This document shows positions 2-23,235 of a DNA stretch of 62,868 nt, one piece after another (position 1 is the first letter of the stretch; the number at the start of each line of letters is the position of its first letter). The position numbers were made by a program, and so were the translations under genes. Origin of the DNA: an uncultured Alphaproteobacteria bacterium (GTDB taxonomy: Bacteria; Pseudomonadota; Alphaproteobacteria; HIMB59; GCA-002718135); the NCBI GenBank assembly GCA_902600225.1, contig CACKIH010000006.1, forward strand, positions 1-62,868. The letters run 5' to 3'. Under the pieces are notes generated by a model. The model was not told the origin of the DNA. It worked only from the letters and a program-made list of their open reading frames with translations, and made no database searches.

Positions 2-676
2 ATCAGATGGAGATATTCTCACTATCATCATCATACTTATACTCAATTTAATGATCCTGTAGATTTTGAAATACATGTAAAAAAACCAACTGATTTAATT
101 GTGTTTTTCTCACATTACATTCCATTCTCTGGTTTTATTTTCTTTAAAAATTCTCTTCAATGGGAAACTATAAAACATGCATTTGGTGTAACTACTGACG
201 TAATGAAAGTTTGTATTCCTGAAAACGAAAGATGGAAATGTAGATTATCAGCTTGGAGTCATCTTTCTATTTGGATAATAAGTATAGCCTTTTCAGTTTA
301 CTTTCAAAGTTGGCTTCCAGTTCTATATGTTTTATTGCCTAATTTTTATGGAAAGACCCTTGTCATGCTTATGGGTCTCACTCAACACGCAGGACTTAGA
401 GAAGATAAAAGAGACCATAGATATACAACCAGAACAGTGTATTTAAATCCAGTTTTAAGTTTTTTATATTGGCATATGGAATATCATGTTGAACACCATA
501 TGTTCCCTCAAGTTCCCTCACATAATTTACCTAAACTGCATGCTATGATTAAAGATCAACTACCACCTGCCAGAAAAGGTCTTCTTGGGGCTTATAAAGA
601 AATTATCCCAGCACTCATAAAACAAGCAAAAAATCCTGACTATCAAATTCCATTATCTGTTCCAAGCAACGCTTAG
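2..676 (+). CDS. Membrane fatty acid desaturase/hydroxylase family protein (5' end cut by window)
   Basis: The frame is open from the left window edge, so this is the C-terminal ~224 residues of a longer protein. The first visible residues hold a second histidine box (HYHHHTYT) and residues near 485-510 nt encode the third box (EYHVEHHMFP). Together these mark the membrane di-iron FA_desaturase superfamily, whose members desaturate or hydroxylate acyl chains or small molecules using O2 and electrons from a ferredoxin. Two hydrophobic stretches lie between the boxes. It is clearly a paralogue of the complete gene at 3133-4149, sharing the TQHAGL, DHR..TRT and HNL..H segments. The next gene, a ferredoxin reductase, starts 5 bp downstream, so an operon is likely. 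The family is certain; the substrate is unknown. Confidence 0.85.
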   Translation: MRWRYSHYHHHTYTQFNDPVDFEIHVKKPTDLIVFFSHYIPFSGFIFFKNSLQWETIKHAFGVTTDVMKVCIPENERWKCRLSAWSHLSIWIISIAFSVYFQSWLPVLYVLLPNFYGKTLVMLMGLTQHAGLREDKRDHRYTTRTVYLNPVLSFLYWHMEYHVEHHMFPQVPSHNLPKLHAMIKDQLPPARKGLLGAYKEIIPALIKQAKNPDYQIPLSVPSNA

Positions 677-681
677 ACTTA

Positions 682-1911
682 GTGAAAAATAATATTATAA
701 TTTTAGGCGGTGGTCAAGCTGGTATCTATGCTGCTAGAGAGATTAGGCAAAATGATTCAAAATCAAATATTAAAATTATAGGTGAAGAAAATTTATTACC
801 ATACGAAAGACCTCCTCTATCTAAAGATTTTTTGCTAGATAAAAAAAATGAAGAAGATCTTTATTTTCATTCTAGCGACGTATTAAAAAATGAAAATATA
901 GAATTTGAAAATGTATCAATTTCTAAAGTTGATTTTGAAAATAAAAAACTTTTTGCAGATAATGATGATGTTTACTCTTATGATAGTTTGCTTATTTCAA
1001 CAGGTTCTGAAAATAAAAAACTTAGTTTAGATAATAATTTAAAGAATGATGTTTATTATCTAAGAAATTTAGAAGAAGCCAAAAAAATTAAAGAAATAGT
1101 TTCAAATAAAAATAAAATAACAATTATTGGTGGTGGTTTTATTGGTTTAGAAATTGCCTCGTCTTTATCTCAGCTTCAAAAGAAAGTAATTGTTATCGAA
1201 ATTGGTAATCAACTTATGGGAAGAATTATACCCAAACAAATTGCTGATTTAGTTCAAAATACTCATTTAGAGCATGGAAATGAAATAATATTAAATAAAC
1301 AGATAGAAAAAATAACTAAAAAAAATGGCATTTATGAAATTTTATTAAATGATAATTCTTTAATAAAAACAGATTTTTTAATTGCAGGTATAGGCTCAAC
1401 CCCTGCTGTAAAGTTATTTGAAAATACAAATTTAAAGCTTGATAATGGTATATTAACTAATCAATTTTGTGAAACTTCTATTAAAGATGTTTATGCAGCT
1501 GGTGATGTATCTAATTTTTATCATCCATTATATGAAAGAAATATGAGACTCGAGTCTTATCAACATGCACAAAATCATGGAATATGTGCTGGAAAAAATA
1601 TTGCTGGAGTAAAAACAGAATATACATCAATTCCTTGGATGTGGTCTGATCAATTTAATTTAAATCTTCAACTGACTGGTATTTGTAATGATTATGATGA
1701 AATCATTGAAAGAGGGAATGATATTAATAGTGGTGTAATTTATTTTTTTCTAAAAAATAAAATAATAAGAGGTGCATGTGGTCTAGGAATTGCAGGAAAA
1801 ATTGGTCGTGACATTAGAATAACTTCTAAATTAAGTGAGAAAAATACCATTGTAGATAAACAAATTCTTTCAGATCAAAATCAAAAATTAAATAAACTTA
1901 TACAAAAATAA
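682..1911 (+). CDS. FAD-dependent ferredoxin/rubredoxin reductase-type oxidoreductase
   Basis: A 409-residue pyridine nucleotide-disulfide oxidoreductase-fold protein. The FAD-binding GGGQAG motif is at residues 9-14, the NAD(P)H-binding GGGFIG at about 150-155, and the second FAD motif (VYAAGDVS) at about 270-277. A Reductase_C-type C-terminal domain follows. No redox-active CxxC is seen, which fits the ferredoxin reductase class (as in Rieske dioxygenase or AlkT/CamA-type systems) rather than disulfide reductases. The start is GTG. It lies 5 bp after a desaturase and is followed by a Rieske ferredoxin. The inferred role is to pass electrons from NAD(P)H through that ferredoxin to the flanking membrane di-iron enzymes. 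Confidence 0.85.
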   Translation: MKNNIIILGGGQAGIYAAREIRQNDSKSNIKIIGEENLLPYERPPLSKDFLLDKKNEEDLYFHSSDVLKNENIEFENVSISKVDFENKKLFADNDDVYSYDSLLISTGSENKKLSLDNNLKNDVYYLRNLEEAKKIKEIVSNKNKITIIGGGFIGLEIASSLSQLQKKVIVIEIGNQLMGRIIPKQIADLVQNTHLEHGNEIILNKQIEKITKKNGIYEILLNDNSLIKTDFLIAGIGSTPAVKLFENTNLKLDNGILTNQFCETSIKDVYAAGDVSNFYHPLYERNMRLESYQHAQNHGICAGKNIAGVKTEYTSIPWMWSDQFNLNLQLTGICNDYDEIIERGNDINSGVIYFFLKNKIIRGACGLGIAGKIGRDIRITSKLSEKNTIVDKQILSDQNQKLNKLIQK

Positions 1912-1963
1912 CATTTTAATTATTTTGTATTTATTTTCAAAAAATAGATATTATATACAATTT

Positions 1964-2281
1964 ATGTCTGAAGAAAATTGGATTGAAGTAGGTTCTACCG
2001 ATAGCATTGAAGAAGAAGATCTCATCAGATTTGATCATCAAGATAAAACTTTTTGTGTGTATAAGCTAACAGATGGTTTTTATGCTACTGATGGAATTTG
2101 TACACACGAGGCGGTACATCTTGAAGATGGTTTGGTTATGGATGATGAAATTGAATGTCCAATGCACCAGGGAATTTTTAATATTAAATCCGGAGAAGCT
2201 TTAAGCCCACCAGCGTGTGAGGATTTAAAAACATATCCAGTTAAAGTTGATAATGACAAAATTTTCATTAAGATAGATTAA
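1964..2281 (+). CDS. Rieske [2Fe-2S] ferredoxin
   Basis: A small soluble protein of 105 residues carrying the Rieske signature: Cys46-x-His48 and Cys65-x-x-His68 (CTH ... CPMH). The size matches bacterial Rieske-type ferredoxins of oxygenase systems. I chose the ATG at 1964 because the protein then begins just before the family's usual first strand. An in-frame TTG at 1925 would add 13 unconvincing residues. No transmembrane anchor is seen, so it is not a bc1-type Rieske subunit. Directly behind the reductase gene, it is the probable one-electron shuttle between that flavoprotein and the desaturase/hydroxylase paralogues on either side. Confidence 0.85.
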   Translation: MSEENWIEVGSTDSIEEEDLIRFDHQDKTFCVYKLTDGFYATDGICTHEAVHLEDGLVMDDEIECPMHQGIFNIKSGEALSPPACEDLKTYPVKVDNDKIFIKID

Positions 2282-2301
2282 ATAATTTTTTTGGAGATTT
2301 T

Positions 2302-3129
2302 ATGAGCAGAAAAAAACTTACAGTTTATGATTATTTGCAATGCAAAGGCAAAAGACAACTAAGTGTTATGTTTGTGCATAATGCTGATGAAGCTGCTGCA
2401 GCTGAAGAGGCAGGCATTGACATGATTTGTACTTCTCATGATGCTCCACAATTTGGTATTTACAATTCTTTTGATGAGCTTAAGCGAATTCGCGAGGCTG
2501 CACCAACTTGTTTCATGCAATCCGGAGGTGCTGTAAGAGTAGCTTCTGAATACGAAGCAATGAAACTATCACACAAGTATTTAGATATTGGTGCAGATGT
2601 TATCTATGGCGGTAATTGGAGTTATAAATGGATTAGAGCATTAAGAGATGAGTATGTTCCAATTAACAGTCATGTCGGATTGGTTCCAGGAAATGCTACT
2701 TGGATTGGCGGATTTGTTGCACAAGGTAAAACTGCTGATAAGGCTATCAGAATTTTAGAACATACGCTTGAGTTACAAGAAGCGGGAGCTATTGGAGTTG
2801 AGCTTGAGGTAGTTCCTCCAAAAGTTGCAGAAGTTATTACCAAAAAAGTTGATATCATGACTCTCTCAATGGGAAGTGGTTCGGGATGTGATGGGCAGTA
2901 TTTATTTGCTAATGATGTTCTTGGATATACTCAAGGAAAAATTCCAAGACATGCGCGAATTTATAGAGATTTTAAAAAAGAATTTTCAAAATTACAAGCT
3001 GAAAGAGTAAGTGCATTCAAAGAGTTTCACGATGATACGGTAAACAAAAAATTTAATGATCCTAAAATCACAGTTAATATTGATGAAAGTGAATTTGAAA
3101 AATTTTTAAATCTTTCAGAAAAATTTTGA
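2302..3129 (+). CDS. Divergent PanB (ketopantoate hydroxymethyltransferase)-like protein
   Basis: A 275-residue PanB-superfamily (PEP mutase/isocitrate lyase fold) protein. Similarity is clearest in SHVGLVPG (123-130), GGFVAQGKT (136-144), the LEVVP segment with the presumed catalytic Glu169, and the GSGSGCDGQ...LGYTQGKIP stretch (191-215). Aligned by eye to E. coli PanB, the two magnesium-binding aspartates (the GDS motif, and the Asp of the ADLPF segment) fall on Ser/His at 44-46 and on Gly near 75. Normal ketopantoate synthesis is therefore doubtful. It may be an aldolase, lyase or hydroxymethyltransferase for another substrate. A GGAG ribosome-binding site lies 6 bp before the ATG. It sits inside the oxygenase-like cluster, 20 bp after the ferredoxin and 3 bp before the second desaturase. 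Confidence 0.75.
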   Translation: MSRKKLTVYDYLQCKGKRQLSVMFVHNADEAAAAEEAGIDMICTSHDAPQFGIYNSFDELKRIREAAPTCFMQSGGAVRVASEYEAMKLSHKYLDIGADVIYGGNWSYKWIRALRDEYVPINSHVGLVPGNATWIGGFVAQGKTADKAIRILEHTLELQEAGAIGVELEVVPPKVAEVITKKVDIMTLSMGSGSGCDGQYLFANDVLGYTQGKIPRHARIYRDFKKEFSKLQAERVSAFKEFHDDTVNKKFNDPKITVNIDESEFEKFLNLSEKF

Positions 3130-3132
3130 TTA

Positions 3133-4149
3133 ATGTTTGCGGGCGAAGTTGATTTAGAAACTTGGTATAAACCAAAAATAGATAAGAAAAATTTAAAGGA
3201 ACTTTCTAAGAGATCGGATACAAAAGGTTTATTAGATATATCGATATTTATTGTTGCTCTAATATCAAGTGGATATCTGTGTATTCTAAGTTGGGGTAAT
3301 TTATGGTCAATACCTGCTCTTTTGCTTTATGGAAATATTTTCTATTGTAAAATCATAAGCATTCAGCATGAAACAAATCACGAAACATATTTTAAAACAA
3401 GAGCTTTAAATAAATTTTTTTATCATGTAACTTCTTTACTCGGTGGTTTTGAAGCAGTTAGATGGAAGTGGAGTCATTTTCATCACCATACCTACACTAT
3501 ATTTACACATGAGGAGGTGTACGATTACGAAAATAATAGTCCGAAACCAACAGAACCTATTAGATTTCTTTTAAATTTTTTACCTCTTGGTCCAATAATT
3601 AATATCCAAAAAATAAGACATTTTACACATTTTGAAATTATTAAACATTCATTTGGAATAATTACTCCTGTTGTAAAGGTTACTGTACCTGAAAAGGAGA
3701 TAAAAAAAATTATTAATAGTTCCAGACTATATTTAGCTTTTTGGTTACTTGTAATTTTATCCTCAGTTTTGCTACAATCGTGGTTACCAATAATAATGAT
3801 AATTTTACCTCCATTTTATGGAAATACTGTATTAATGATTTGTGGCATGACTCAACATGCTGGACTAGCCGATAATATTAAAGATCATAGAAAAAGTACA
3901 AGAACTGTTATTATGAATCCCTTTTTCAGTTTTTTATATTCAAATATGGAGTATCATATAGAACACCACATTTTCCCAAAAATACCATGCCATAATTTAA
4001 AAAAATTTCATAAAATAGTAAAAAATCAAATGCCAGAACCTCATAATGGAATAATTTCTGCTTATAGATCAATAATCCCAGCAATATTTAAGCAATCTAA
4101 AGATAAAAATTATTTTATTCATGTGAAGGTTCCAGATACGACAATTTAG
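3133..4149 (+). CDS. Membrane fatty acid desaturase/hydroxylase family protein (complete paralogue)
   Basis: A 338-residue integral membrane di-iron enzyme. The three histidine boxes are His79-x3-His83 (HETNH), His115-x-His117-His118-His119 (HFHHH) and His275-x-x-His278-His279 (HIEHH). Hydrophobic segments near 45-75 and 200-240 place the boxes on one membrane face, as in FA_desaturase proteins. The reaction would be O2-dependent desaturation or hydroxylation. It is a close-enough relative of the truncated gene at the window start to be a duplication, and the two flank the reductase, Rieske ferredoxin and PanB-like genes. It starts 3 bp after the PanB-like stop, so it is co-transcribed. The substrate could be a lipid or a small polar osmolyte; sequence alone does not decide. 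Confidence 0.85.
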   Translation: MFAGEVDLETWYKPKIDKKNLKELSKRSDTKGLLDISIFIVALISSGYLCILSWGNLWSIPALLLYGNIFYCKIISIQHETNHETYFKTRALNKFFYHVTSLLGGFEAVRWKWSHFHHHTYTIFTHEEVYDYENNSPKPTEPIRFLLNFLPLGPIINIQKIRHFTHFEIIKHSFGIITPVVKVTVPEKEIKKIINSSRLYLAFWLLVILSSVLLQSWLPIIMIILPPFYGNTVLMICGMTQHAGLADNIKDHRKSTRTVIMNPFFSFLYSNMEYHIEHHIFPKIPCHNLKKFHKIVKNQMPEPHNGIISAYRSIIPAIFKQSKDKNYFIHVKVPDTTI

Positions 4150-4187
4150 TCTCTTTTTTTTTATTCAAAATATACTATAAATAAATC

Positions 4188-5192
4188 ATGGGAAATCAAC
4201 TAAATGATAATGATTTCGGTACTAGAGATAAAAGAGGTCATTGGAAACCTTTTGGTACAATAAGTATCAACCCACCTAGAGATATATTTTTTAACCCAAT
4301 AAAATTTTTAAAGTATTTTTTTAAATTCCCAGGAATTTTTTTTCCATGGACTTTCGTCTTTGCAGCGATAACAGTTGCTACATATCTTTTTTTGACTCCT
4401 TCTTTAGAAACAATGAAGACTTTTGAAATAGGATGGATATCCTATATATTCTTTAGAAATGCAGTTATTATTTTGCTTTGGACAGGCTTCTTTCATTTAA
4501 GACTGAAAACACAAGGAACTTCATTTAAATATAATCCACGACCTTTGGAAAAAAACAATTCAACATTTTTATTTAATGATCAGACTAAAGATAATTTATT
4601 CTATACTTTTTGTAGTGCTATTCCATTATGGACAGCATACGAAGTAATTACATTTTGGGCATTTGCAAATCAAATAATACCATATGTAAGTTGGGAGGCT
4701 TATCCAATATATTGTTGTTTTATGTTCTTTCTTGTTCCATTTATAAGAGACGCACATTTTTACTTAACTCATAGACTATTGCACTGGGCGCCACTTTATA
4801 AAATTGCTCATAAAGTTCATCACCGTAATACAAATACAGGTGCTTGGTCTGGTATGTCTATGCATCCAATAGAGCATCTATTATATTTTTCAGGTATTTT
4901 AGTGCATTGGATTATTCCTTCTCACCCTCTAGTTGCGATGTATCATGTTTTTCATGCTGGATTAGCACCTACACCTGGACATACAGGATATGAAAAGATG
5001 ACTTTCAAAAATGGTGTATCAATACCAACAGGTGATTATATGCACTATATACATCACAAATATTTCGAATGTAATTACTCAGGAGGTAACACTAGCTTTT
5101 TAGACAAACTAATGGGTACATTTCATGATGGATCTGAAGAAGCAACAAAAGAAGTAATGACTCGTATTAAAGACAAAGCGCATTATCTTTAA
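4188..5192 (+). CDS. Sterol desaturase/fatty acid hydroxylase superfamily membrane enzyme
   Basis: A 334-residue protein with about four hydrophobic segments (around 45-70, 85-105, 140-185 and 230-250). It has the histidine clusters of the FA_hydroxylase family: His190-x4-His195-x3-His199, His208-x-x-His211-His212 and the His-rich HYIHHK near 286-290. These bind a di-iron centre in sterol desaturases, C4-methyl oxidases, carotenoid hydroxylases and fatty acid hydroxylases. It is a different superfamily from the two neighbouring FA_desaturases but needs the same reductant type, so it could share the nearby ferredoxin and reductase. A TATACT-like -10 element lies 17 bp before the ATG with no Shine-Dalgarno, hinting at a short leader. 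Confidence 0.8.
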   Translation: MGNQLNDNDFGTRDKRGHWKPFGTISINPPRDIFFNPIKFLKYFFKFPGIFFPWTFVFAAITVATYLFLTPSLETMKTFEIGWISYIFFRNAVIILLWTGFFHLRLKTQGTSFKYNPRPLEKNNSTFLFNDQTKDNLFYTFCSAIPLWTAYEVITFWAFANQIIPYVSWEAYPIYCCFMFFLVPFIRDAHFYLTHRLLHWAPLYKIAHKVHHRNTNTGAWSGMSMHPIEHLLYFSGILVHWIIPSHPLVAMYHVFHAGLAPTPGHTGYEKMTFKNGVSIPTGDYMHYIHHKYFECNYSGGNTSFLDKLMGTFHDGSEEATKEVMTRIKDKAHYL

Positions 5193-5224: not shown

Positions 5225-6112
5225 TTGATCTTTAACGTGAGTAAGGTTGAATTATATAAAGATGTAAAAAATAGTTTAGGCGAAGGTATAACTTGGTCTG
5301 CAATTAATCAAAGTTTATTTTGGCTTGATATAAAACCAAAAACACTTTTATTCAGAATAAATTTACAAAGTGAAAGATTAGAAACTTTTGAATTACCTGA
5401 ATTTGTAACAGCATCATCAATAATTTCAAACAGTGAAATTGCTTTAGTTTCAAACAACGGAGTAAACAAATTTAATTTTCAAACCAAAAAATATGAAATA
5501 ATAAAAGAGGTAGAAGAAAATATTTTAACTAATAGATCAAACGACGGTGCATCCGATGCAAAGGGAAGATTTTGGTTCGGTACAATGCAAAATAATATTA
5601 ATCAGGATGGAAGCGCAAAGACTTTAACTACTAAATCTGGAACTTTATATTGTTTATCAGAAAATAAATTAAACATAGTTGAAACAAATCTTGGTATACC
5701 TAATACATTTGTTTGGAGTCCAGATAATACAAAATTTTATTTTGCTGACTCAACTGAAGGATCATTACTTGAATACAAATTTAATCTAGATAAAGGCAGT
5801 TTATCAGATAAAAAAATTTTATTTGATTTTGATAGAGGAGCTCCAGATGGTTCAACAATTGATAGTGATGGTTTTATTTGGAATTGTCGTTGGGGTGGAT
5901 CATGTATAGTGAGAATTGACCCTAAAGGAAGAGTTGATCAAATTTATGAGCTACCAGTAGAAAATGTCACTAATTGTGTTTTTGGTGGTACTGATCTTAA
6001 GACATTATTCATTACTACTGCTAATAATTCTGGTAAAAATCAATATGATGGCGGTTTATTCGCATTAAATGTAAATGTACCAGGAGTTGAAGATTATAAA
6101 TTTAAAATTTGA
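5225..6112 (+). CDS. SMP-30/gluconolactonase family sugar lactonase
   Basis: A 295-residue six-bladed beta-propeller protein of the SMP-30/LRE family. Typical family points are present: LGEG with the metal-binding Glu20 near the N terminus, NDG near residue 106, PNTF...SPDNTKFYFADS near 160-180, and PDGS near 206 with the metal Asp. These proteins hydrolyse sugar lactones to sugar acids, and the next gene encodes a sugar-acid dehydratase, so lactone opening is the natural role. The start is uncertain: TTG at 5225 or GTG at 5237, both without a clear ribosome-binding site. No signal peptide, so cytoplasmic. Confidence 0.82.
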   Translation: MIFNVSKVELYKDVKNSLGEGITWSAINQSLFWLDIKPKTLLFRINLQSERLETFELPEFVTASSIISNSEIALVSNNGVNKFNFQTKKYEIIKEVEENILTNRSNDGASDAKGRFWFGTMQNNINQDGSAKTLTTKSGTLYCLSENKLNIVETNLGIPNTFVWSPDNTKFYFADSTEGSLLEYKFNLDKGSLSDKKILFDFDRGAPDGSTIDSDGFIWNCRWGGSCIVRIDPKGRVDQIYELPVENVTNCVFGGTDLKTLFITTANNSGKNQYDGGLFALNVNVPGVEDYKFKI

Positions 6113-6144: not shown

Positions 6145-7878
6145 ATGAATAAAATAAATAAATTTAGATCCTCTAATTGGTTTAATTCTAAATCACATAG
6201 AAGAGATACTTTTATCCATAGAGGATGGATGCGAAATCAAGGTCATCCCAATCACTTATTTGATGGACGTCCTGTAATTGGAATTTGTAATACTTGGTCA
6301 GAACTGACACCATGTAATGGCCATTTTAGAGAAATAGCAGAATCAGTTAAGAAAGGAGTATATGAGGCAGGAGGTTTTCCTCTTGAATTCCCAGTCTTTT
6401 CGGCAAGTGAATCTAGTCTTAGACCTACCGCAATGTTATTTAGAAACTTGGCAAGTATGGATGTAGAAGAATCGATAAGAGGCAATCCTATTGATGGAGT
6501 CGTACTTCTAATGGGTTGTGATAAAACAACACCTTCATTAATGATGGGAGCAGCAAGTGTTGATCTTCCTACAATAGGAGTCTCAGGTGGTCCAATGCTA
6601 AACGGTTATCATCAAGGAGAAAGAGTAGGCTCTGGAACCGGGGTATGGAAACTTGATGCTGAATTAAATGCAGGTGTAATTACAGAACAAGATTTAATAA
6701 ATGCAGAAATTTCTATGAGTAGATCAAAGGGTAATTGTATGACAATGGGTACAGCATCAACAATGGGCTCTATGGTAGAAGCTTTAGGAATGTCTCTTCC
6801 TGGAAATGCTGCAATACCTGCAGTTGATTCAAGAAGATATGTATTGGCTCATATGTCAGGAAAAAGAATTGTAGAGATGGTTAAAGAAAATATAACTATG
6901 TCGAAAATAGTAACAAAAAAATCATTTGAAAATGCAATAAAGGTTAACGGCGCAATAGGTGGCTCAACTAATGCTGTTATACATTTAACAGCTATTGCAG
7001 GAAGAATGGAAATAGATTTACATTTAGAAGATTGGGACAAATGTGGTGATGGTATTCCAACATTAGTAAATCTTCAACCTTCTGGAAAATATTTAATGGA
7101 AGATTTTTATTATGCAGGTGGTGTTCCTGTTGTAATAAAAAGATTACTTGAAAAAAAATTATTAGAAGAAAATGCAATGACTGTAAATGGAAAAAGTATT
7201 GGTGAAAATAATAAAGATGCTAAATGTTCGAATAATGACGTTATAAAAGAATTTGATAATCCATTAACAAAAAATGGAGGCATTAAAATTCTCAAAGGAA
7301 ACATTGCGCCAAATGGTGCAATCATTAAACCATCTGCTGCATCACCAGAATTAATGAAACATACAGGAAAAGCAGTTGTATTTGAAAGCGTTGAAGAATT
7401 TCATGAAAAAATTGATAATCCAAATTTAGAATTAGATGAAAACTCTATATTAGTTTTGAAAAATTGTGGACCAAAAGGTTATCCAGGTATGGCAGAAGTT
7501 GGAAACATGCGTCTTCCACAAAAACTTTTAAAGAAAGGTGTTAGGGATATGATTAGGATATCTGATGCTAGAATGAGTGGAACAGCATATGGAACAGTAA
7601 TCCTACATACTGCCCCTGAGGCAGCTGTAAAAGGCCCTTTAGCAGCCGTCCAAAATGGTGATCTAATAGAAATAGATGTCAATCAAGGTTCTATGAACTT
7701 AAAAGTTGACGAAGTAACGATTAAGAAACGTTTAGATAATTATAATCCAATTTTACCTGAAATTTCTGGAGGTTATCAAAAGATGTATATAGATCATGTT
7801 ATGCAAGCTGACAAAGGTGCAGATCTTGATTTTCTAATTGGTAAAAGAGGTGCAGAGGTAAAAAGACATAGTCATTAA
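6145..7878 (+). CDS. Sugar-acid dehydratase, IlvD/Edd family (L-arabinonate dehydratase-like)
   Basis: A 577-residue IlvD/Edd dehydratase. Three likely iron-sulfur cysteines are seen in GICNTWSE (~48), LMGCDKTTPS (~125) and GNCMTMGTAST (~198). The N-terminal RGWMRNQG...FDGRPVIGICNTWSELTPC and DVEESIRGNPIDGVV segments match the pentonate (L-arabinonate/D-fuconate-type) branch better than dihydroxy-acid dehydratase of branched amino acid synthesis. The reaction would be pentonate to 2-keto-3-deoxypentonate. Preceded by a lactonase (32 bp gap), it forms the lactone-to-ketoacid part of an oxidative sugar pathway. The exact sugar is not determined, and no matching KDG aldolase or ketodeoxypentonate dehydratase is visible nearby. 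Confidence 0.85.
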   Translation: MNKINKFRSSNWFNSKSHRRDTFIHRGWMRNQGHPNHLFDGRPVIGICNTWSELTPCNGHFREIAESVKKGVYEAGGFPLEFPVFSASESSLRPTAMLFRNLASMDVEESIRGNPIDGVVLLMGCDKTTPSLMMGAASVDLPTIGVSGGPMLNGYHQGERVGSGTGVWKLDAELNAGVITEQDLINAEISMSRSKGNCMTMGTASTMGSMVEALGMSLPGNAAIPAVDSRRYVLAHMSGKRIVEMVKENITMSKIVTKKSFENAIKVNGAIGGSTNAVIHLTAIAGRMEIDLHLEDWDKCGDGIPTLVNLQPSGKYLMEDFYYAGGVPVVIKRLLEKKLLEENAMTVNGKSIGENNKDAKCSNNDVIKEFDNPLTKNGGIKILKGNIAPNGAIIKPSAASPELMKHTGKAVVFESVEEFHEKIDNPNLELDENSILVLKNCGPKGYPGMAEVGNMRLPQKLLKKGVRDMIRISDARMSGTAYGTVILHTAPEAAVKGPLAAVQNGDLIEIDVNQGSMNLKVDEVTIKKRLDNYNPILPEISGGYQKMYIDHVMQADKGADLDFLIGKRGAEVKRHSH

Positions 7879-7908: not shown

Positions 7909-8952
7909 ATGAACAGTAATTTTAATCCACTATCAGCTGAAGAATTAGTTTCAAGAATAAATAAAATTCCAAGAATTCGTTTAGCACAACTACCAACTGC
8001 TCTTGAATATGCCCCTAATATTTCTAAAGAGTTAAATATAAATCTATACATAAAAAGAGATGATTGCACAGCTCTAGCTTTTGGAGGGAACAAAACAAGA
8101 CATCTAGAATTTATAATGGCTAAAACTTTATCTGGAGAGTATGATTGTATTTTAACTGGAGCTGCCTCTCAATCAAATTTTTGTCGTCAAGCAGTAGCTG
8201 CAGCAAATAAATTAAATCTAGATAGTTATTTAGTATTGATGCATGGAATAAAAGGTAAATTAATGCAAGGTAATTTTTTATTGTATAATATTTTAGGAGC
8301 AAACGTTGAGGTAGTTGATGGAGAAAATTTAGAAGAAATACCAAAACATCTTTATAGAAAATATAGTCAGTTAATAAAAGAGGGTCGAAAACCTTTACTG
8401 ATATACGGTGGATTTGGTAAAGAAGATACAACACTTGCTGGAATTAGTTATGCAAATGCTATGGCTGAAATTGATTTGCAAATGAAAGAACAAAATTTTA
8501 TGGCAGATCATTTATTTGTTACGGCTGCTAATATGACACAAGCAGGCTGTGAGTTAGGAGCTAAAATATTAAATTGGCCAACTCGTATCCAAGGCATTTC
8601 ACCTGTTTATTGGGAAATGAATATTAAAAAAGATATTGCTAGGATTTGTAATGAAGGAGCTAAGCTACTTGATGTAAATATAAAATTTAATCATGAAATG
8701 ATCAATCATGACAATACTTATGTAGGTGAAAAGTATGGTGCTACTACAAAAGCAGGAATAGAAGCTATGAAGCTTTTAGCAAATAAAGAGTCTATAATTT
8801 TAGATCCAGTTTATACCTCGAAAGGTTTTGCTGCTCTTATTGATTATGTTCAAAAAGGTATTATTAAAAAAGGAGATAATGTAATTTTTATATATACAGG
8901 TGGGAGTCCAGCTGTATTTGCATATAATGAAGATATAAATAATCCAAAATAG
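7909..8952 (+). CDS. PLP-dependent D-cysteine desulfhydrase/ACC deaminase family protein
   Basis: A 347-residue fold-type II PLP enzyme. The PLP lysine is Lys62 in FGGNKTRHLEF. The phosphate and substrate loop GAASQSNFCRQ (~84-94) and the C-terminal TGGSPAVFAYN follow D-cysteine desulfhydrase (DcyD) and L-cysteate sulfo-lyase (CuyA). Members eliminate sulfide, sulfite or ammonia from a small amino acid, giving pyruvate. In a marine organism, cysteate or D-cysteine are the first substrates to test; 1-aminocyclopropane-1-carboxylate is less likely. The usual QSNH is QSNFC here. It starts 30 bp after the dehydratase on the same strand and is the last gene before a strand switch. Confidence 0.8.
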   Translation: MNSNFNPLSAEELVSRINKIPRIRLAQLPTALEYAPNISKELNINLYIKRDDCTALAFGGNKTRHLEFIMAKTLSGEYDCILTGAASQSNFCRQAVAAANKLNLDSYLVLMHGIKGKLMQGNFLLYNILGANVEVVDGENLEEIPKHLYRKYSQLIKEGRKPLLIYGGFGKEDTTLAGISYANAMAEIDLQMKEQNFMADHLFVTAANMTQAGCELGAKILNWPTRIQGISPVYWEMNIKKDIARICNEGAKLLDVNIKFNHEMINHDNTYVGEKYGATTKAGIEAMKLLANKESIILDPVYTSKGFAALIDYVQKGIIKKGDNVIFIYTGGSPAVFAYNEDINNPK

Positions 8953-13509: not shown

Positions 13510-14994
13510 ATGTTTATTGGAATAGATCTTGGTACTTCTTCAATTAAAATGATTTTAATTGATCAAAACCAAAAAATTCTTGCTACAGCCACTTCAAGTC
13601 TCACAGTACAATCTCCAAAAGATGGTTTTAGTGAGCAAAATCCACAAGAATGGATTGACTCGACAATGAAATGTTTTGAAGCTTTGAAGCTAAAAAAACC
13701 AAATGAGTTTTCGCAAACCGTTTCTCTTGGCATATCAGGACATATGCATGGAGCTACTTTAATTGATAAGGATGGAAATGTTATTAGACCATGTATTCTT
13801 TGGAATGATACTAGATCACATCAAGAGTGTGAAGAATTTGAAAAACAAAACTTTGATGTACGATCAATCTCAGGAAATATCACTATGCCTGGTTTTACTG
13901 CTCCAAAAATAAATTGGATTAAAAACAATGAAATAGATAATTTTCGAAAAATTTTCAAAGTTTTATTACCAAAAGATTATTTAAGATTTATTCTTACTGG
14001 TGAATTTTTTTCTGAAATGTCAGATGCATCTGGCACATTATGGTTAGACATAAAACATAGGAAATGGTCTAATAAACTTTTATCATGCTCGTTTTTAGAA
14101 GAAAAACATATGCCCAATCTTGTGGAAGGCAATGAGCTTACAGGTTATTTAAAAAAAGAGTTAAAAGATAAATTTAATTTTAATAATAATGTTAAAGTTG
14201 TTGGTGGAGCGGGTGATAATGCAGCTGCAGCAACTGGTATGGGCATAACAAATAAAAACCAGTCATTTATATCTCTTGGTACTTCAGGAGTTTTTTTTAC
14301 ACCTACTGAGAGTTTTTTAAGTAATACTGGAGATGCAGTACATTCATTTTGTCATTGTTTACCTAACAAATGGCATTTGATGTCAGTTATGTTAAGTGCA
14401 AGTAATTGTTTGGATTGGATCTGTGCTGTTACAAACACTTCAATTGCAGAAACACTTAATAATGTAGAAAAATTTTATTCAGATGAAGATACTATAAATA
14501 ATTCTTCCTTCTTTTTACCCTATCTCTCGGGAGAGAGGACTCCTCATAATGATCCACATATTAGAGGATCATTTCACTCTATTAAAACAACAACAAATGC
14601 AACAGATTTACAGTATGCAGTAATTGAGGGTATTAGTTTTGGTATATTAGATGGCGTAAATTCTATTTTAAAAGTTAACAATAACTTTGATACCATATAC
14701 ATGGTCGGAGGAGGTTCAAAAAGTTCATTCTGGATTGAATTGCTTGCATCACTATTAAATAGAAAATTAAGTGTTTGTGATCAAAGTGAATTTGGTGCGG
14801 CACTTGGTGTTGCAAGATTAGCAATGTTTCAGGATGATACAATCTATAATAAAGAAAAAATTGTTAGTGAAATAAAAATAAGTAAAATTTATGAACCGAA
14901 GAAACATAATATGGATATTTTGTTACGAAGATATGCTATTTGGAAAGATTTATACAACAGTAACAAAAAAATTGCTCAAAATTTGAATTTTTAA
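13510..14994 (+). CDS. xylB: Xylulokinase-like FGGY carbohydrate kinase
   Basis: A 494-residue FGGY kinase. It begins with the phosphate loop GIDLGTSSIK (3-12), followed by GISGHMHGATL (~75), with the Met-His-Gly typical of xylulokinases, PCILWNDTRS (~96), GGAGDNAAAATG (~230) holding the catalytic Asp, and GERTPHNDP (~340). It phosphorylates D-xylulose to D-xylulose 5-phosphate for the pentose phosphate pathway. Its convergent neighbours encode a mannitol/arabinitol-family dehydrogenase and a xylitol-type dehydrogenase, both of which can yield D-xylulose, so the pathway fits. Its last 4 bp overlap the dehydrogenase 3' end. Confidence 0.87.
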   Translation: MFIGIDLGTSSIKMILIDQNQKILATATSSLTVQSPKDGFSEQNPQEWIDSTMKCFEALKLKKPNEFSQTVSLGISGHMHGATLIDKDGNVIRPCILWNDTRSHQECEEFEKQNFDVRSISGNITMPGFTAPKINWIKNNEIDNFRKIFKVLLPKDYLRFILTGEFFSEMSDASGTLWLDIKHRKWSNKLLSCSFLEEKHMPNLVEGNELTGYLKKELKDKFNFNNNVKVVGGAGDNAAAATGMGITNKNQSFISLGTSGVFFTPTESFLSNTGDAVHSFCHCLPNKWHLMSVMLSASNCLDWICAVTNTSIAETLNNVEKFYSDEDTINNSSFFLPYLSGERTPHNDPHIRGSFHSIKTTTNATDLQYAVIEGISFGILDGVNSILKVNNNFDTIYMVGGGSKSSFWIELLASLLNRKLSVCDQSEFGAALGVARLAMFQDDTIYNKEKIVSEIKISKIYEPKKHNMDILLRRYAIWKDLYNSNKKIAQNLNF

Positions 14995-16397
14995 TAAATA
15001 TCCTTTAAAAAATTTATTTTTTTTTCTAAAATTTCAGAAAACAAAGAAAATTGTTTTGGTGTGTTCCCCCATAGTTCTACACAATTTGTAAATTCAACAA
15101 TTTTATTTTCTTCTAGATAATATTTGATCCATTCCCAACTTGGTTCATAGTATTCAAAACTTAATTTTTTATCTTTAATTTTTAACATAAAAACATACCA
15201 ACTTGCAATTGCATCAATACAATTTTCAGGAATAATATTTTTTTCAAAGCAATTATGTATAGTTGGCAATATAAATATAGGAAATTTACCTACACCATCC
15301 ATTGCAATTCTTTCTAATTTATCAGCAATATTTTTATTTTTAAATCTTTCATAAATTGTGATCATATATTCTTCTAAATCAAAGGGTTTATGAACAAGCG
15401 CTGGTAATATTTCCTTTTGTTGAATTTCAAAGAAAAATTGTTCTAAATTTTTATCTGATATTGCTTCATCATAAGTTGTATAACCTTTTAGTGCTCCAAA
15501 ATAACTTAATGCTAAGTGAGCTCCATTTAGAATTCTAATCTTAGCTTCTTCATAGGGAAATACATCCTTAACAAACTTCACACCAACATCTTCAAGCTTT
15601 GGTCTTTCATTTATAAAGTTATCCTCTACTATCCATTGAATAAAGGGTTCAGCTATCACACCACAATTTTCCTTCAAATTAAATTTTTCCATTATATCAG
15701 ATTTTAAAAATTCTGGTGTTCTAGGAGTAATTCGATCAACAACACAAGAGGGAAAACTGACATTTTCTTCTATCCATTCTAAAAGTTCAAATTCTTTAGA
15801 TGCTGATAAATATTGTTTTAAACAGTCTTGTAACATTTTTCCATTTTCTCTAATATTATCACAGCATAGCAATGTGATTTTTTTATTTATAGATAGCATT
15901 CTTTTTTTTAAAGCTGCCATAAGAAAAGAGTAAATTATATTGTTTTCTTTTCCTTGAATATTATTCTTAATAAGTTCTAAATTTAGATTTAATTTATTTT
16001 TTTCATTAATATAGTAACCGCTTTCGGTAATTGTCATTGTAACTAATTTTATATCTGGATTTGAAAGAATACCCTCAGCTTCATCTTTATCCTTACTCCA
16101 GTCTATTAATTTTATAATCGAATTGATATCTTTATATTTTTCGTCTCCTGAAGTAGAAATTGTTTTCAGGATATATTTCCCTTTTCTTAATTTTAGATTT
16201 TCAAAATTTTTGCTATCTTCTTTTCTTAAATTAATTCCACATATTCCCCAATTAATATTATTAGATGTATTAAGATATTCATCTATGTAGTTTGCTTGAT
16301 GAGCTCTATGAAAATTTCCTACACCAAGATGAACAATACCTGTTTTACAATTTTCTCTATTAAAAGATGAAATAGTTAGTTCACCTCTATTCATCAA
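14991..16397 (-). CDS. Mannitol dehydrogenase family polyol dehydrogenase (D-arabinitol 4-dehydrogenase-like)
   Basis: A 468-residue long-chain polyol dehydrogenase. The N-terminal GIVHLGVGNFHRAHQANYID (~20-39) is the NAD-binding glycine motif of the mannitol dehydrogenase family. The catalytic Lys...Asn...His set lies in EEAKIRILNGAHLAL (~285-295). The family oxidises mannitol, D-arabinitol, fructuronate or tagaturonate. Beside a xylulokinase, D-arabinitol to D-xylulose is the best guess; mannitol to fructose or a uronate reaction cannot be excluded. It overlaps the upstream xylitol-type dehydrogenase by 11 bp, so the two are one minus-strand operon. Confidence 0.82.
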   Translation of the reverse strand: MMNRGELTISSFNRENCKTGIVHLGVGNFHRAHQANYIDEYLNTSNNINWGICGINLRKEDSKNFENLKLRKGKYILKTISTSGDEKYKDINSIIKLIDWSKDKDEAEGILSNPDIKLVTMTITESGYYINEKNKLNLNLELIKNNIQGKENNIIYSFLMAALKKRMLSINKKITLLCCDNIRENGKMLQDCLKQYLSASKEFELLEWIEENVSFPSCVVDRITPRTPEFLKSDIMEKFNLKENCGVIAEPFIQWIVEDNFINERPKLEDVGVKFVKDVFPYEEAKIRILNGAHLALSYFGALKGYTTYDEAISDKNLEQFFFEIQQKEILPALVHKPFDLEEYMITIYERFKNKNIADKLERIAMDGVGKFPIFILPTIHNCFEKNIIPENCIDAIASWYVFMLKIKDKKLSFEYYEPSWEWIKYYLEENKIVEFTNCVELWGNTPKQFSLFSEILEKKINFLKDIY

Positions 16398-17424
16398 TTT
16401 TTATTTGAAGCTTTACATCGGCGGGTCTATGTTCTGCTGCTCGTAAAAATGCTTCAACACTTTCTTCAAATTTAAAGGTATGTGTAATCATCGGCTTAAC
16501 ATTTATTTTTCCTCGTTCAAGTAGTCTTATTGATGGTTCATATTGATGTGAATACCTATGCACAGTTTGAAACTCAAGACCTTTAGAAAATAGTATAGCC
16601 CAATTCATTGGTACTGGTTCAGCATTATTTCCAATTAAGACAACATGTGCGCCAGGTGAACAGCAAGTAAAAATAGCTTCATATGCTTTTACTGCTCCGC
16701 TACATTCAAAAAACCTATCAACTCCCCATCCATTAGTTTCATCCATAATTTTTGTTTCTAAATTTTCTTTGGATATATCTATGGGAATAAGATCAGGATA
16801 ATAATCACACATTTTTAATTTTTCACTTAAAATGTCAGCAATATAAACTTTTGCACATCCTCCAGCTAAAGCGGCAAGGGCTGTAACCAATCCAATTGGC
16901 CCACATCCCATTACTAATCCAATTTGACCAGGTTTTATTTTTGCTTTTGTTACTCCTTGCATACCTACTGCTAAAGGCTCAACCATTGCTCCTTCAGCAT
17001 AAGAGAGATTGTCTGGTATTTTAAAAACCATATCACTTGGAAATACAACCTCAGGTGTTAAACAACCATGAATAGGTGGTGTAGCCCAAAATTTTACTTT
17101 TTGATCATAATTATAAATACCAAGTTTATATTCTTTTGTACTTTTACTAACAATCTGAGGTTCAACACAAACTCTGTCACCCACTTTTAAATCTTTTACA
17201 TTTGTACCTACTTCGATAATTGTTCCTGAGCCTTCATGTCCCAAAACCATTGGTGCATTAACATGCCATTGCCCAATTTTTCCATGTTTATAATAGTGAA
17301 TATCTGAACCACATATACCAACAGTATGCATATTGATTTTTACATCATTTGAACCAACCTTGTTTGGTAAATCTATATCTCTTAAATTCAATTCAAGTTT
17401 TTTTTCTAAAACTAATGCTTTCAT
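16387..17424 (-). CDS. Zinc-dependent polyol (xylitol/sorbitol-type) dehydrogenase
   Basis: A 345-residue medium-chain dehydrogenase. Catalytic zinc ligands are Cys38 (GICGSD), His63-Glu64 (GHEGSG) and the Glu of VEPLAVG (~148). The Rossmann motif is near 170-180 (GCGPIGLVT). The four-cysteine structural zinc lobe of classical alcohol dehydrogenases is missing: the corresponding stretch EPQIVSKSTKEYKLGIYN contains no Cys. The FWATPPIHGCL segment recalls bacterial xylitol dehydrogenases. The likely reaction is xylitol (or another pentitol) to D-xylulose with NAD+. First gene of the minus-strand pair; its start faces an SDR gene across 86 bp. Confidence 0.85.
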   Translation of the reverse strand: MKALVLEKKLELNLRDIDLPNKVGSNDVKINMHTVGICGSDIHYYKHGKIGQWHVNAPMVLGHEGSGTIIEVGTNVKDLKVGDRVCVEPQIVSKSTKEYKLGIYNYDQKVKFWATPPIHGCLTPEVVFPSDMVFKIPDNLSYAEGAMVEPLAVGMQGVTKAKIKPGQIGLVMGCGPIGLVTALAALAGGCAKVYIADILSEKLKMCDYYPDLIPIDISKENLETKIMDETNGWGVDRFFECSGAVKAYEAIFTCCSPGAHVVLIGNNAEPVPMNWAILFSKGLEFQTVHRYSHQYEPSIRLLERGKINVKPMITHTFKFEESVEAFLRAAEHRPADVKLQIKIDE

Positions 17425-22257: not shown

Positions 22258-22482
22258 CTATCCAAACAAAATAACTAACGCTATAACTAGTGCGAAAAGT
22301 GCAATCGCTTCAACTAATGCAAAACCTAACATTGTCATTGTAAAAACCTCACCTCTCGCTGCTGGATTTCTTCCAACTGCTTGAATAAATGATGAGAAAA
22401 TATTCCCAATTCCAATACCTGATCCAATAACACCGATAACGGCTAGACCCGCTCCGATTACTTTTGCTGCTTCAATTTCCAT
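22258..22482 (-). CDS. atpE: ATP synthase F0 subunit c
   Basis: A 74-residue proteolipid hairpin of two membrane helices joined by the polar loop RNPAARGE. The proton-binding carboxylate is the Glu in FALVEAIALF (~58). The glycine-rich first helix (GAGLAVIGVIGSGIGIG) allows tight ring packing. No sodium-ligand signature was noted, so proton specificity is likely. A strong AGGAGG ribosome-binding site precedes it, the best in the operon, fitting the need for many c subunits per complex. Confidence 0.95.
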   Translation of the reverse strand: MEIEAAKVIGAGLAVIGVIGSGIGIGNIFSSFIQAVGRNPAARGEVFTMTMLGFALVEAIALFALVIALVILFG

Positions 22483-22486
22483 AAGT

Positions 22487-22492
22487 CCTCCT
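22487..22492 (-). promoter_or_regulatory. Strong Shine-Dalgarno site for atpE
   Basis: On the minus strand AGGAGG lies 4 bases before the atpE ATG (AGGAGGACTTATG). Most genes in this window have no recognisable site, so this one stands out. It probably raises c-subunit synthesis relative to a, b and b', which are needed in one copy each against about ten c subunits. Confidence 0.75.
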
Positions 22493-22500
22493 ATTTTAAA

Positions 22501-23235
22501 TTAATGTAAATGATAAGCATCGTTAATATATAAACACGTCAGTATTGCAAACACATATGCTTGCAAAAACGCAATTAAAATTTCTAATCCAGTTAAAGCT
22601 ACAATAAAAGCTAAAGGAAAAACTCCTGTAAAAAATGGCATGGAAACAACAAAGCCCGCGAATACTTTTAGTAGTGTGTGACCAGCCAGCATGTTTGCAA
22701 ATAATCTAACTGATAAACTTATAGGTCTTGATAAATAAGAAATTACCTCAATAGGAATAAGCAGTGGATGCATGTAAAATGGTACACCTGGTATGTAAAA
22801 GAAAGTAAAAAATTTAATACCATGGTTGATAAATCCAAGAATAGTTACACCAATAAATACAACTGCTGCTAAAGCAAATGTAACAATAATATGACTAGTG
22901 AAAGTAAATTGGTATGGTATCATACCAACCATATTTCCAATTAACACAAACATGAATAAAGAGAAAACAAATGGGAAATATTTTTTTCCATTATCTCCTA
23001 CTGTATCAGACAGAAGCTGAGCGATAAAATTATACATCAATTCTGAAATAAGCTGCATCCTAGAAGGGATGATTGATCTTGTATTCACTGTTAAAGTTAA
23101 AAAAAGAGTAATTACTAAAACAGTAATCAGCATAGCAAAAGATGAATTTGTAAATGAAATATTATAGCCACCAAGTTCAATATTAGATATTGGATCTATT
23201 TCGAACTGTTTTAGTGGACTGTCTTTTGCGGCCAT
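22501..23235 (-). CDS. atpB: ATP synthase F0 subunit a
   Basis: A 244-residue proton-channel subunit with about five to six membrane segments. The essential arginine is in ISLSVRLFANMLAGHTLL (~175) and the conserved C-terminal helix AFLQAYVFAILTCLYINDAYHLH closes the protein. With the c ring it forms the proton path. The N-terminal SPLKQFEIDPI start is typical of alphaproteobacteria. It lies between atpI (21 bp gap) and atpE (18 bp gap). Confidence 0.95.
   Translation of the reverse strand: MAAKDSPLKQFEIDPISNIELGGYNISFTNSSFAMLITVLVITLFLTLTVNTRSIIPSRMQLISELMYNFIAQLLSDTVGDNGKKYFPFVFSLFMFVLIGNMVGMIPYQFTFTSHIIVTFALAAVVFIGVTILGFINHGIKFFTFFYIPGVPFYMHPLLIPIEVISYLSRPISLSVRLFANMLAGHTLLKVFAGFVVSMPFFTGVFPLAFIVALTGLEILIAFLQAYVFAILTCLYINDAYHLH

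Follow-up and report, generated by a model that had tools for sequence, protein, structure and literature searches.

A conserved MocDEF-type operon with a PanB-like partner, probably for O-demethylation of methylated sugars or cyclitols, in an uncultured HIMB59 alphaproteobacterium

We analyzed a 62,868-nucleotide stretch of DNA (the window) from an uncultured Alphaproteobacteria bacterium of the HIMB59 lineage (assembly GCA_902600225.1). It is contig CACKIH010000006.1 (C6) taken from base 1, and the genome to which it belongs is 1.25 Mb and 75% complete. Judged by the families of its products, the block at positions 2–5192 is a conserved operon of the MocDEF kind, with a MocD oxygenase, a MocE-family ferredoxin, and a MocF reductase. 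At a probability of roughly 0.6, we read it as an operon for oxidative O-demethylation of a methylated sugar or cyclitol, in which a PanB-like enzyme would take the carbon and one reductase–ferredoxin pair would be shared among several oxygenases.

The MocDEF-type block and its conservation

The block comprises six genes:

2–676, + strand: MocD-like membrane di-iron oxygenase a, C-terminal 224 aa (PF00487, 86.5 bits; cut-off 29.7)
682–1911, + strand: MocF-like NADH:ferredoxin reductase, GTG start (Pyr_redox_2, 203.8 bits; Reductase_C, 45.0 bits)
1964–2281, + strand: MocE-family Rieske [2Fe-2S] ferredoxin, 105 aa, ATG at 1964 (PF00355, 60.0 bits)
2302–3129, + strand: PanB-like protein, 275 aa (PF02548 Pantoate_transf, 129.6 bits; cut-off 28.7)
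3133–4149, + strand: MocD-like membrane di-iron oxygenase b, 338 aa (PF00487, 117.9 bits)
4188–5192, + strand: FA_hydroxylase/sterol-desaturase-type membrane di-iron protein, a third oxygenase candidate (PF04116, 71.2 bits; cut-off 31)

The open reading frames (ORFs) named in the initial annotation are present at these positions, each matching its named family with a profile score above the Pfam cut-off. The tight spacing reported there was measured at 5, 52, 20, and 3 bases among the five named genes, with a further 38 bases before the PF04116 gene. Because the contig edge cuts the 5′ part of the first gene, only the C-terminal 224 residues of MocD a are visible. The same annotation took membrane di-iron proteins to be the oxygen-activating partners, which stands, and left the PF04116 protein at 4188–5192 undescribed. 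Its proposal that a reductase and a Rieske ferredoxin are dedicated to a multicomponent oxygenase, with membrane di-iron proteins alongside, is supported.

MocDEF has been described as the rhizopine "ferredoxin oxygenase complex" (Bahar 1998, as cited in PMC10107442); scyllo-inosamine is reported to induce the mocD promoter (PMC10107442), and rhizopine is given as L-3-O-methyl-scyllo-inosamine (PMC3538637). Given this precedent, the pairing of a Rieske ferredoxin with a membrane di-iron oxygenase was already known, and the lack of a Rieske oxygenase to go with the ferredoxin is less odd than it had first appeared. No Rieske oxygenase was indeed found in the 75%-complete genome, whose two PF00355 matches are both ~106 aa. 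The window's MocE scores 135.4 bits against the MocE family model TIGR02377 (cut-off 136.15; Rhizobium pisi MocE, 179.3) and carries the cluster-ligand boxes CTHE and CPMH. The HcaD model gives the MocF-like reductase 300.9 bits, under its cut-off of 450.

Eight PF00487 proteins are encoded in the genome, seven of them MocD-like and 41–54% identical to each other. In a quick tree, with support from the Shimodaira–Hasegawa-like approximate likelihood ratio test only and a distant PF00487 protein from contig C38 as sole outgroup on a very long branch, these seven spread over several old clades common to the family. MocD a and b fall in different old clades and are 47% identical over 221 residues; to call them "duplicated" is therefore misleading, and on their placement in this tree we reject a recent duplication. 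All three histidine-box patterns occur in 91/91 MocD-like proteins 290 aa or longer from family and plasmid loci. MocD b has HETNH, HFHHH, and HIEHH; MocD a has HYHHH and HVEHH, box 1 lying beyond the contig edge. By sequence, MocD gave no match in the PDB at E up to 1. In a fold search, the predicted model of MocD b matched best to chains of two Ycf2/Orf2971–FtsHi motor complexes (Z 18.8/18.3), with Z 10.7 to AlkB (8f6t) and 4.9 to human stearoyl-CoA desaturase. The eighth PF00487 protein, the C38 outgroup (L027:2392–3411, − strand), is AlkB-like by eye and adjoins a gene that, also by eye, is quinone-reductase-like.

Conservation was assessed in 40 neighborhoods chosen by hand among the hits of a search with the PanB-like protein; long contigs were favored, and 14 close relatives (L066–L079) are included. 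Genes were labeled by blastp against our own labeled set, which misses small and overlapping ORFs. The order MocD–MocF–MocE–PanB-like–MocD, proposed for a search in relatives by the initial annotation, recurs in 14/14 of the chosen close relatives and is thus not a product of chance. There the PanB-like protein is 97–99% and MocE 98–100% identical to those of the window, and the PF04116 gene follows MocD b in 13/13 relatives whose stretch extends that far. Left of the first desaturase gene, all 14 carry a divergent sugar ATP-binding cassette (ABC) transporter (binding protein, ATPase, permease), and no Rieske ORF longer than 300 aa is listed in the 14 genomes. No Rieske oxygenase therefore lies just left of the locus in these relatives, and on the strength of the transporter in its place we reject one left of the window, a possibility that had been raised at the outset.

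More distant relatives vary. A second PanB-like gene stands behind the second MocD in L083, L090, L091, L104, and L105; L102 and L103 have PanB-like and MocD genes without MocE and MocF at that place, and L080 has PanB-like genes with PF04116 and without MocD.

Homologues also co-occur with the reductase, the ferredoxin, and the PanB-like gene outside this lineage, so that neither of the two outcomes named by the initial annotation as counting against its reading came about. By tblastn, MocD has relatives in 277 plasmid records; Rhizobium, with 146, and Sinorhizobium, with 85, account for most of these. One run holds mocD, mocE, mocF, and a PanB-like gene in Rhizobium johnstonii pRL11, and Rhizobium sp. 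11515TR has mocD, mocE, mocF, PanB-like, purU, and folD consecutively. The order mocD–mocE–mocF–panB′–iolG (panB′, PanB-like gene) occurs in Rhizobium rosettiformans, with folD and purU nearby, and in Peteryoungia, where purU is also present. Rhizobium etli IE4803 has a moc/PanB-like run whose MocD is annotated "hydrocarbon oxygenase MocD-like", and Sinorhizobium sp. B11 has mocD, mocE, and a PanB-like gene in one run. Two loci have no mocF in place: R. etli NXC12 (mocD, mocE, and a PanB-like gene) and Aestuarium, where mocD–mocE–panB′ lies upstream of a rhizopine-binding protein, an ABC transporter, and iolG, iolC, iolD, and iolE. Aminobacter and Rhizobium sp. Q54 carry mocD–mocE–mocF without a PanB-like gene, and Paraburkholderia mocD–mocE alone.

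For a wider count, MocE served as the anchor, since the PanB-like alignment is too diverse for a genome scan. The 80 loci used are the best 80 of 551, all with Hyphomicrobiales titles and related to one another; some end early, and labeling sensitivity is such that MocE itself is labeled in just 74. Labels were assigned to MocD in 71, MocF in 66, a PanB-like gene in 52, and PurU in 9, and to a LacI-type regulator in 62, a rhizopine-type binding protein in 34, IolG in 29, and a TIM-barrel epimerase in 28. Locus L197 (Rhizobiales bacterium isolate AFS049917, ~9001) shows the order FA_hydroxylase-like–MocE–MocF with sugar ABC genes and no labeled MocD, which suggests that PF04116 enzymes such as the product of window 4188–5192 can also draw on MocEF.

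The PanB-like protein and its active site

Against the NCBIfam PanB models, the PanB-like protein scores 102.6 bits (TIGR00222; cut-off 207.55) and 117.6 bits (PRK00311; cut-off 272), whereas a separate PanB of the same genome, on contig C2, reaches 259.7 bits. Its predicted model (predicted local distance difference test score, 78.6) has the fold of ketopantoate hydroxymethyltransferase (KPHMT), with Z 26.1 over 237 residues and 25% identity to 3vav; six KPHMT entries occupy ranks 1–6 (Z 20.6–26.1), and the next entry stands at 15.7.

We compared active sites in the residue numbering of E. coli PanB (1m3u), including the genome's own PanB, across 78 PanB-like sequences of 240–300 aa, 14 of them chosen from the genome-contig set; the D45 region, which aligned with gaps, was set aside in the residue verdict. 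D84, K112, and E114, which we take to be the metal/keto-acid site residues of PanB, have counterparts in 0/78, and the E114 position is Tyr in 77. H136 and E181, presumably catalytic residues with E181 as the catalytic base, have equivalents in 78/78, and a second Glu two residues ahead of E181 is invariant in the PanB-like alignments A1 and A3. The fold and the H136/E181 equivalents are thus shared with PanB, whereas the other three residues are not. Identification as a true PanB is ruled out by the missed cut-offs, the missing residues, and the separate PanB on C2. The loss of the three residues also argues against the carbon–carbon bond enzyme that the initial annotation had seen here.

Genomic context points to a partnership with oxygenases. 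Counting as genes the labeled ORFs and unlabeled ORFs longer than 180 aa, 50 of 54 PanB-like genes in 42 family loci lie at most two genes from an oxygenase: 44 MocD, 3 PhyH, and 3 PF04116. The family therefore seems tied to oxygenases in general. As a query, the PanB-like protein matches 105/110 genomes of the family, a figure in which true PanB is counted too. In locus L095 (9651–12575), the neighbors of a PanB-like gene are a family 4 glycosidase and a PhyH-type iron/2-oxoglutarate (Fe/2OG) oxygenase, with no MocD near; L093 and L098 are like-ordered, the families having been verified for L095. On contig C4 of the genome studied here, a MocD gene and a convergent PanB-like gene overlap at their ends by four bases (L009:8220–8223).

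We consider processing of the carbon that the oxygenase removes to be the most likely role of the PanB-like protein. The simplest route, in which it would act as a one-carbon (C1) carrier to tetrahydrofolate (THF), stands at about even odds on family, active-site, and context evidence. A comparable fate of carbon is described for plasmid pAO1, whose purU–mabO–folD operon is presented as the route for demethylation carbon from an N-methyl group (PMC3891541). As the C1 exit in the present lineage, PurU is ruled out, with 0/110 family genomes over the cut-off. Fhs is present in 20/20 family genomes tested and over the cut-off in 3/14 control genomes; it could turn formyl-THF into formate and ATP, thereby emptying the formyl-THF pool. 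We found no literature on a PanB-like gene with mocDEF, in a search whose coverage of subscription journals was thin; the available text of PMC5320631 treats serine hydroxymethyltransferase and MocR.

Electron supply to the membrane oxygenases

One Reductase_C reductase (682–1911) and one canonical MocE were found in the genome, in a count that covered Reductase_C reductases and Rieske ferredoxins. Across the family, 71 of 110 genomes carry a Reductase_C reductase, exactly one each, and in 71/71 it lies within 764 bases of a MocE-sized Rieske match on the same contig. Genomes with the reductase hold a mean of 5.6 PF00487 genes (n = 71) vs. 1.9 in those without (n = 39), kinship ignored; among genomes at least 80% complete, the means are 5.8 (n = 31) and 2.0 (n = 13). 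Within a sample of 20 genomes—this genome plus 19 chosen at 81–96% completeness, the sample also used for Fhs—14 have no Rieske ORF longer than 300 aa, and in 7 the sole Rieske ORF besides MocE is one of ~175 aa, which matches the bc1 subunit in size. From this copy-number pattern, it appears quite likely that one MocE–MocF pair feeds several MocD-like oxygenases, including the five others in the genome.

Several points count against such sharing. The PF00487 counts include non-MocD proteins and are uncorrected for relatedness. Six genomes without a detected reductase still hold 4–6 PF00487 genes. Rieske-oxygenase-sized ORFs occur in 6 of the 20 sampled genomes, and since G002, G106, and G108 among these also have MocF, MocE may serve other partners there. 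Finally, further reductases may be missing, because the genome studied here is only 75% complete.

The corresponding alternative, that the oxygenases use other carriers and the window's MocEF serves MocD a and b only, seems unlikely to us. It draws some strength from a four-cysteine MocE-like variant ~9.6 kb from the first C4 MocD, from the incompleteness of the genome, and from a search that covered Reductase_C reductases and Rieske proteins but neither plant-type or bacterial-type ferredoxins nor reductases of other families. Set against these are the single Reductase_C reductase in each of 71 genomes, always beside MocE, the roughly threefold higher number of PF00487 genes in reductase-bearing genomes, and the seven genomes in which MocE is accompanied by just the ~175-aa Rieske ORF.

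The MocE-like variant is 106 aa long, and both of its histidine ligands are replaced by cysteine (CxC, CxxC). It occurs in this genome (L028:14311–14631, + strand; contig C4 ~22310–22630, near iolD) and in six relatives (L206–L211), one of another genus; an eighth match fetched with these, L212 (G092), keeps CxH/CxxH and is another protein. Its ligand pattern may indicate an all-cysteine [2Fe-2S] cluster or a rubredoxin-like iron.

Substrate class, proposed route, and meaning

Two genes of sugar catabolism follow the block:

5225–6112, + strand: SMP-30/gluconolactonase-like lactonase (PF08450, 234 bits)
6145–7878, + strand: IlvD/Edd-family sugar-acid dehydratase (PRK06131, 906.8 bits; cut-off 539)

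The L-arabinonate dehydratase model gives the product of 6145–7878 832.5 bits vs. a cut-off of 882. Because of this downstream lactonase and dehydratase, an aldose or aldonate fits the window cluster better than an inositol. The other MocD genes also have sugar-related surroundings. Among the RbsB-type sugar transporter genes of contig C4 lie three MocD-like genes and one PanB-like gene; a true IolD (769.1 bits; cut-off 715) is encoded ~6.7 kb before the first C4 MocD. Contig C19 has two MocD-like genes with sugar transporters and ThuA and Gfo/Idh/MocA genes. The best of four C4/C19 binding proteins reaches 100.6 bits against the rhizopine uptake model NF052284 (cut-off 420). In Rhizobium mesoamericanum responding to root exudate, mocDEF homologues are reported to rise 1.5–2.1-fold and the operon of a mocB homologue 4–4.7-fold; the most concentrated component of that exudate is given as pinitol (3-O-methyl-D-chiro-inositol), and the authors propose rhizopine use (PMC5789663).

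Taken by gene context, the substrate is very probably a polar sugar or cyclitol, and O-demethylation is the probable reaction. A lipid substrate is unlikely. The initial annotation had offered a lipid or a methylated or branched osmolyte: the lipid does not agree with contexts of sugar/inositol uptake and sugar-acid catabolism, and the methylated osmolyte came close, methylated sugars and cyclitols fitting best.

From the families of the parts, their order, conservation, and copy number, all of which are observed, we infer every reaction of the following scheme. Electrons would pass from NADH to MocF (682–1911), to MocE (1964–2281), and on to the membrane di-iron oxygenase, with O2 activated at the di-iron site of MocD. 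MocD a and b, perhaps together with the PF04116 protein, would hydroxylate an O-methyl group (R-O-CH3 + O2 + NADH → R-O-CH2OH). The PanB-like enzyme would then transfer the hydroxymethyl carbon, or the formaldehyde that it would release, to THF, yielding R-OH and 5,10-methylene-THF. The latter would be oxidized via the THF route, and the freed sugar would enter the neighboring lactonase and sugar-acid dehydratase.

Several findings weigh against this scheme. The window's MocE falls 0.75 bits short of the TIGR02377 cut-off. Four of the 54 PanB-like genes have no labeled oxygenase within two genes. In 28 of the 80 rhizobial MocE loci, some of them cut short, no PanB-like gene is labeled, so the protein is probably not essential to the chemistry. 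The absence of PurU over cut-off from all 110 family genomes means that the THF route must end elsewhere in this family, where FolD lay outside the search. In addition, panB of Pseudomonas putida J5 is linked to nicotine catabolism via ordinary pantothenate synthesis (PMC3891541), and a panB name near a demethylation pathway therefore need not mean C1 capture.

Alternative fates of the carbon rank lower. MocDEF might demethylate sugars with release of free formaldehyde, and the PanB-like protein would have another role, for example condensing formaldehyde with a keto acid or hydroxymethylating the freed sugar acid. The PanB fold and the conserved H124 and E169 are compatible with this, and free formaldehyde may be tolerated in the 28 MocE loci that have no labeled PanB-like gene. 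We nevertheless think it unlikely: the three PanB residues D84, K112, and E114 are without counterpart throughout the 78 sequences, and the PurU and FolD neighbors in some rhizobia point to THF-bound carbon. Less probable still is that the oxygenase hydroxylates a branched sugar at a C-methyl group or a ring carbon and that a retro-aldol step by the PanB-like enzyme then hands the hydroxymethyl group to THF, in effect PanB reversed. In its favor, PanB is a hydroxymethyl transferase, and the next genes of the window cluster encode a lactonase and a sugar-acid dehydratase; against it, what we recall as the keto-acid-holding residues of PanB are gone, and neighbors elsewhere are inositol-type genes. 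The related MocDEF pathway, moreover, is described as acting on an O-methyl ether (PMC10107442, PMC3538637).

That the set desaturates or hydroxylates lipids, supplied by an electron chain of its own, is very improbable: the PF00487 and PF04116 family names and weak matches of MocD b to the lipid desaturases DesB and DesA (37.4 and 25.2 bits; models NF052549 and NF052548) suggest it, whereas both cut-offs are 500 bits, the contexts are sugar ABC transporters, Gfo/Idh/MocA, ThuA, IolD, and LacI regulators, and the tree, with its one very distant outgroup, groups the proteins with MocDs from inositol loci of rhizobia. On scores so far under cut-off and on the sugar-gene contexts, we reject a lipid desaturase.

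In a bolder form of the O-demethylation reading, the PanB-like proteins would be folate enzymes of a new type, hydroxymethyl transferases that load onto THF the carbon of the hemiacetal made by di-iron or PhyH-type Fe/2OG demethylases, so that formaldehyde is never free; one reductase/Rieske hub of this lineage would drive up to seven membrane oxygenases specialized for different methylated sugars and cyclitols. This form is tentative and, to us, somewhat doubtful.

Other genes of the window lie farther downstream. A D-cysteine-desulfhydrase-like gene (7909–8952) follows the sugar-acid dehydratase gene, at a place where some relatives have it and some do not. A polyol cluster recognized by eye (13510–17424) comprises an FGGY-type kinase, a mannitol-type dehydrogenase, and a sorbitol-type zinc dehydrogenase, the two dehydrogenase genes overlapping by 11 bases.

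Rhizopine catabolism by MocDEF (Sinorhizobium meliloti L5-30, Rhizobium leguminosarum) uses the same three components and has a comparable link to inositol-type transport and catabolism. Here, in contrast, the order is D–F–E, a second MocD and the PanB-like and PF04116 genes are added, seven MocDs fall to one pair, and no rhizopine-type binding protein exceeds the cut-off among the four tested. The rhizobial mocD–mocE–mocF–"panB" clusters (R. johnstonii pRL11, R. etli IE4803, S. meliloti 1021 pSymB, Peteryoungia) contain the same four gene types, and their PanB-like proteins are ~39–47% identical to that of the window; they differ in their D–E–F order, one MocD per cluster, and the occasional presence of PurU/FolD or IolG. 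Marine Flavobacteriia demethylate 6-O-methyl-galactose by a P450 that likewise works oxidatively on a methylated sugar with a ferredoxin and a ferredoxin reductase, but this enzyme is a heme P450 rather than a membrane di-iron enzyme and is described as releasing formaldehyde free (PMC10033563). In the pAO1 operon, the carbon is likewise caught as methylene-THF and oxidized by FolD and PurU, whereas the oxidase acts on N-methylaminobutyrate, and the available description names no PanB-like protein or MocDEF (PMC3891541).

The MocDEF kind of system is thus known; new here are a probable electron hub and an uncharacterized PanB-like partner, which is common in rhizobia too. If the PanB-like protein does load the carbon onto folate, it would represent a new enzyme activity, present in many rhizobia, and would correct the annotation "3-methyl-2-oxobutanoate hydroxymethyltransferase" in the records examined. 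In the nodules of legume hosts of rhizobia, pinitol and ononitol, both methylated inositols, are reported to build up (PMC8730688). Methyl ethers hinder sugar digestion, and this small-genome bacterium seemingly devotes seven oxygenases to them, for which a single electron feed would be a cheap design.

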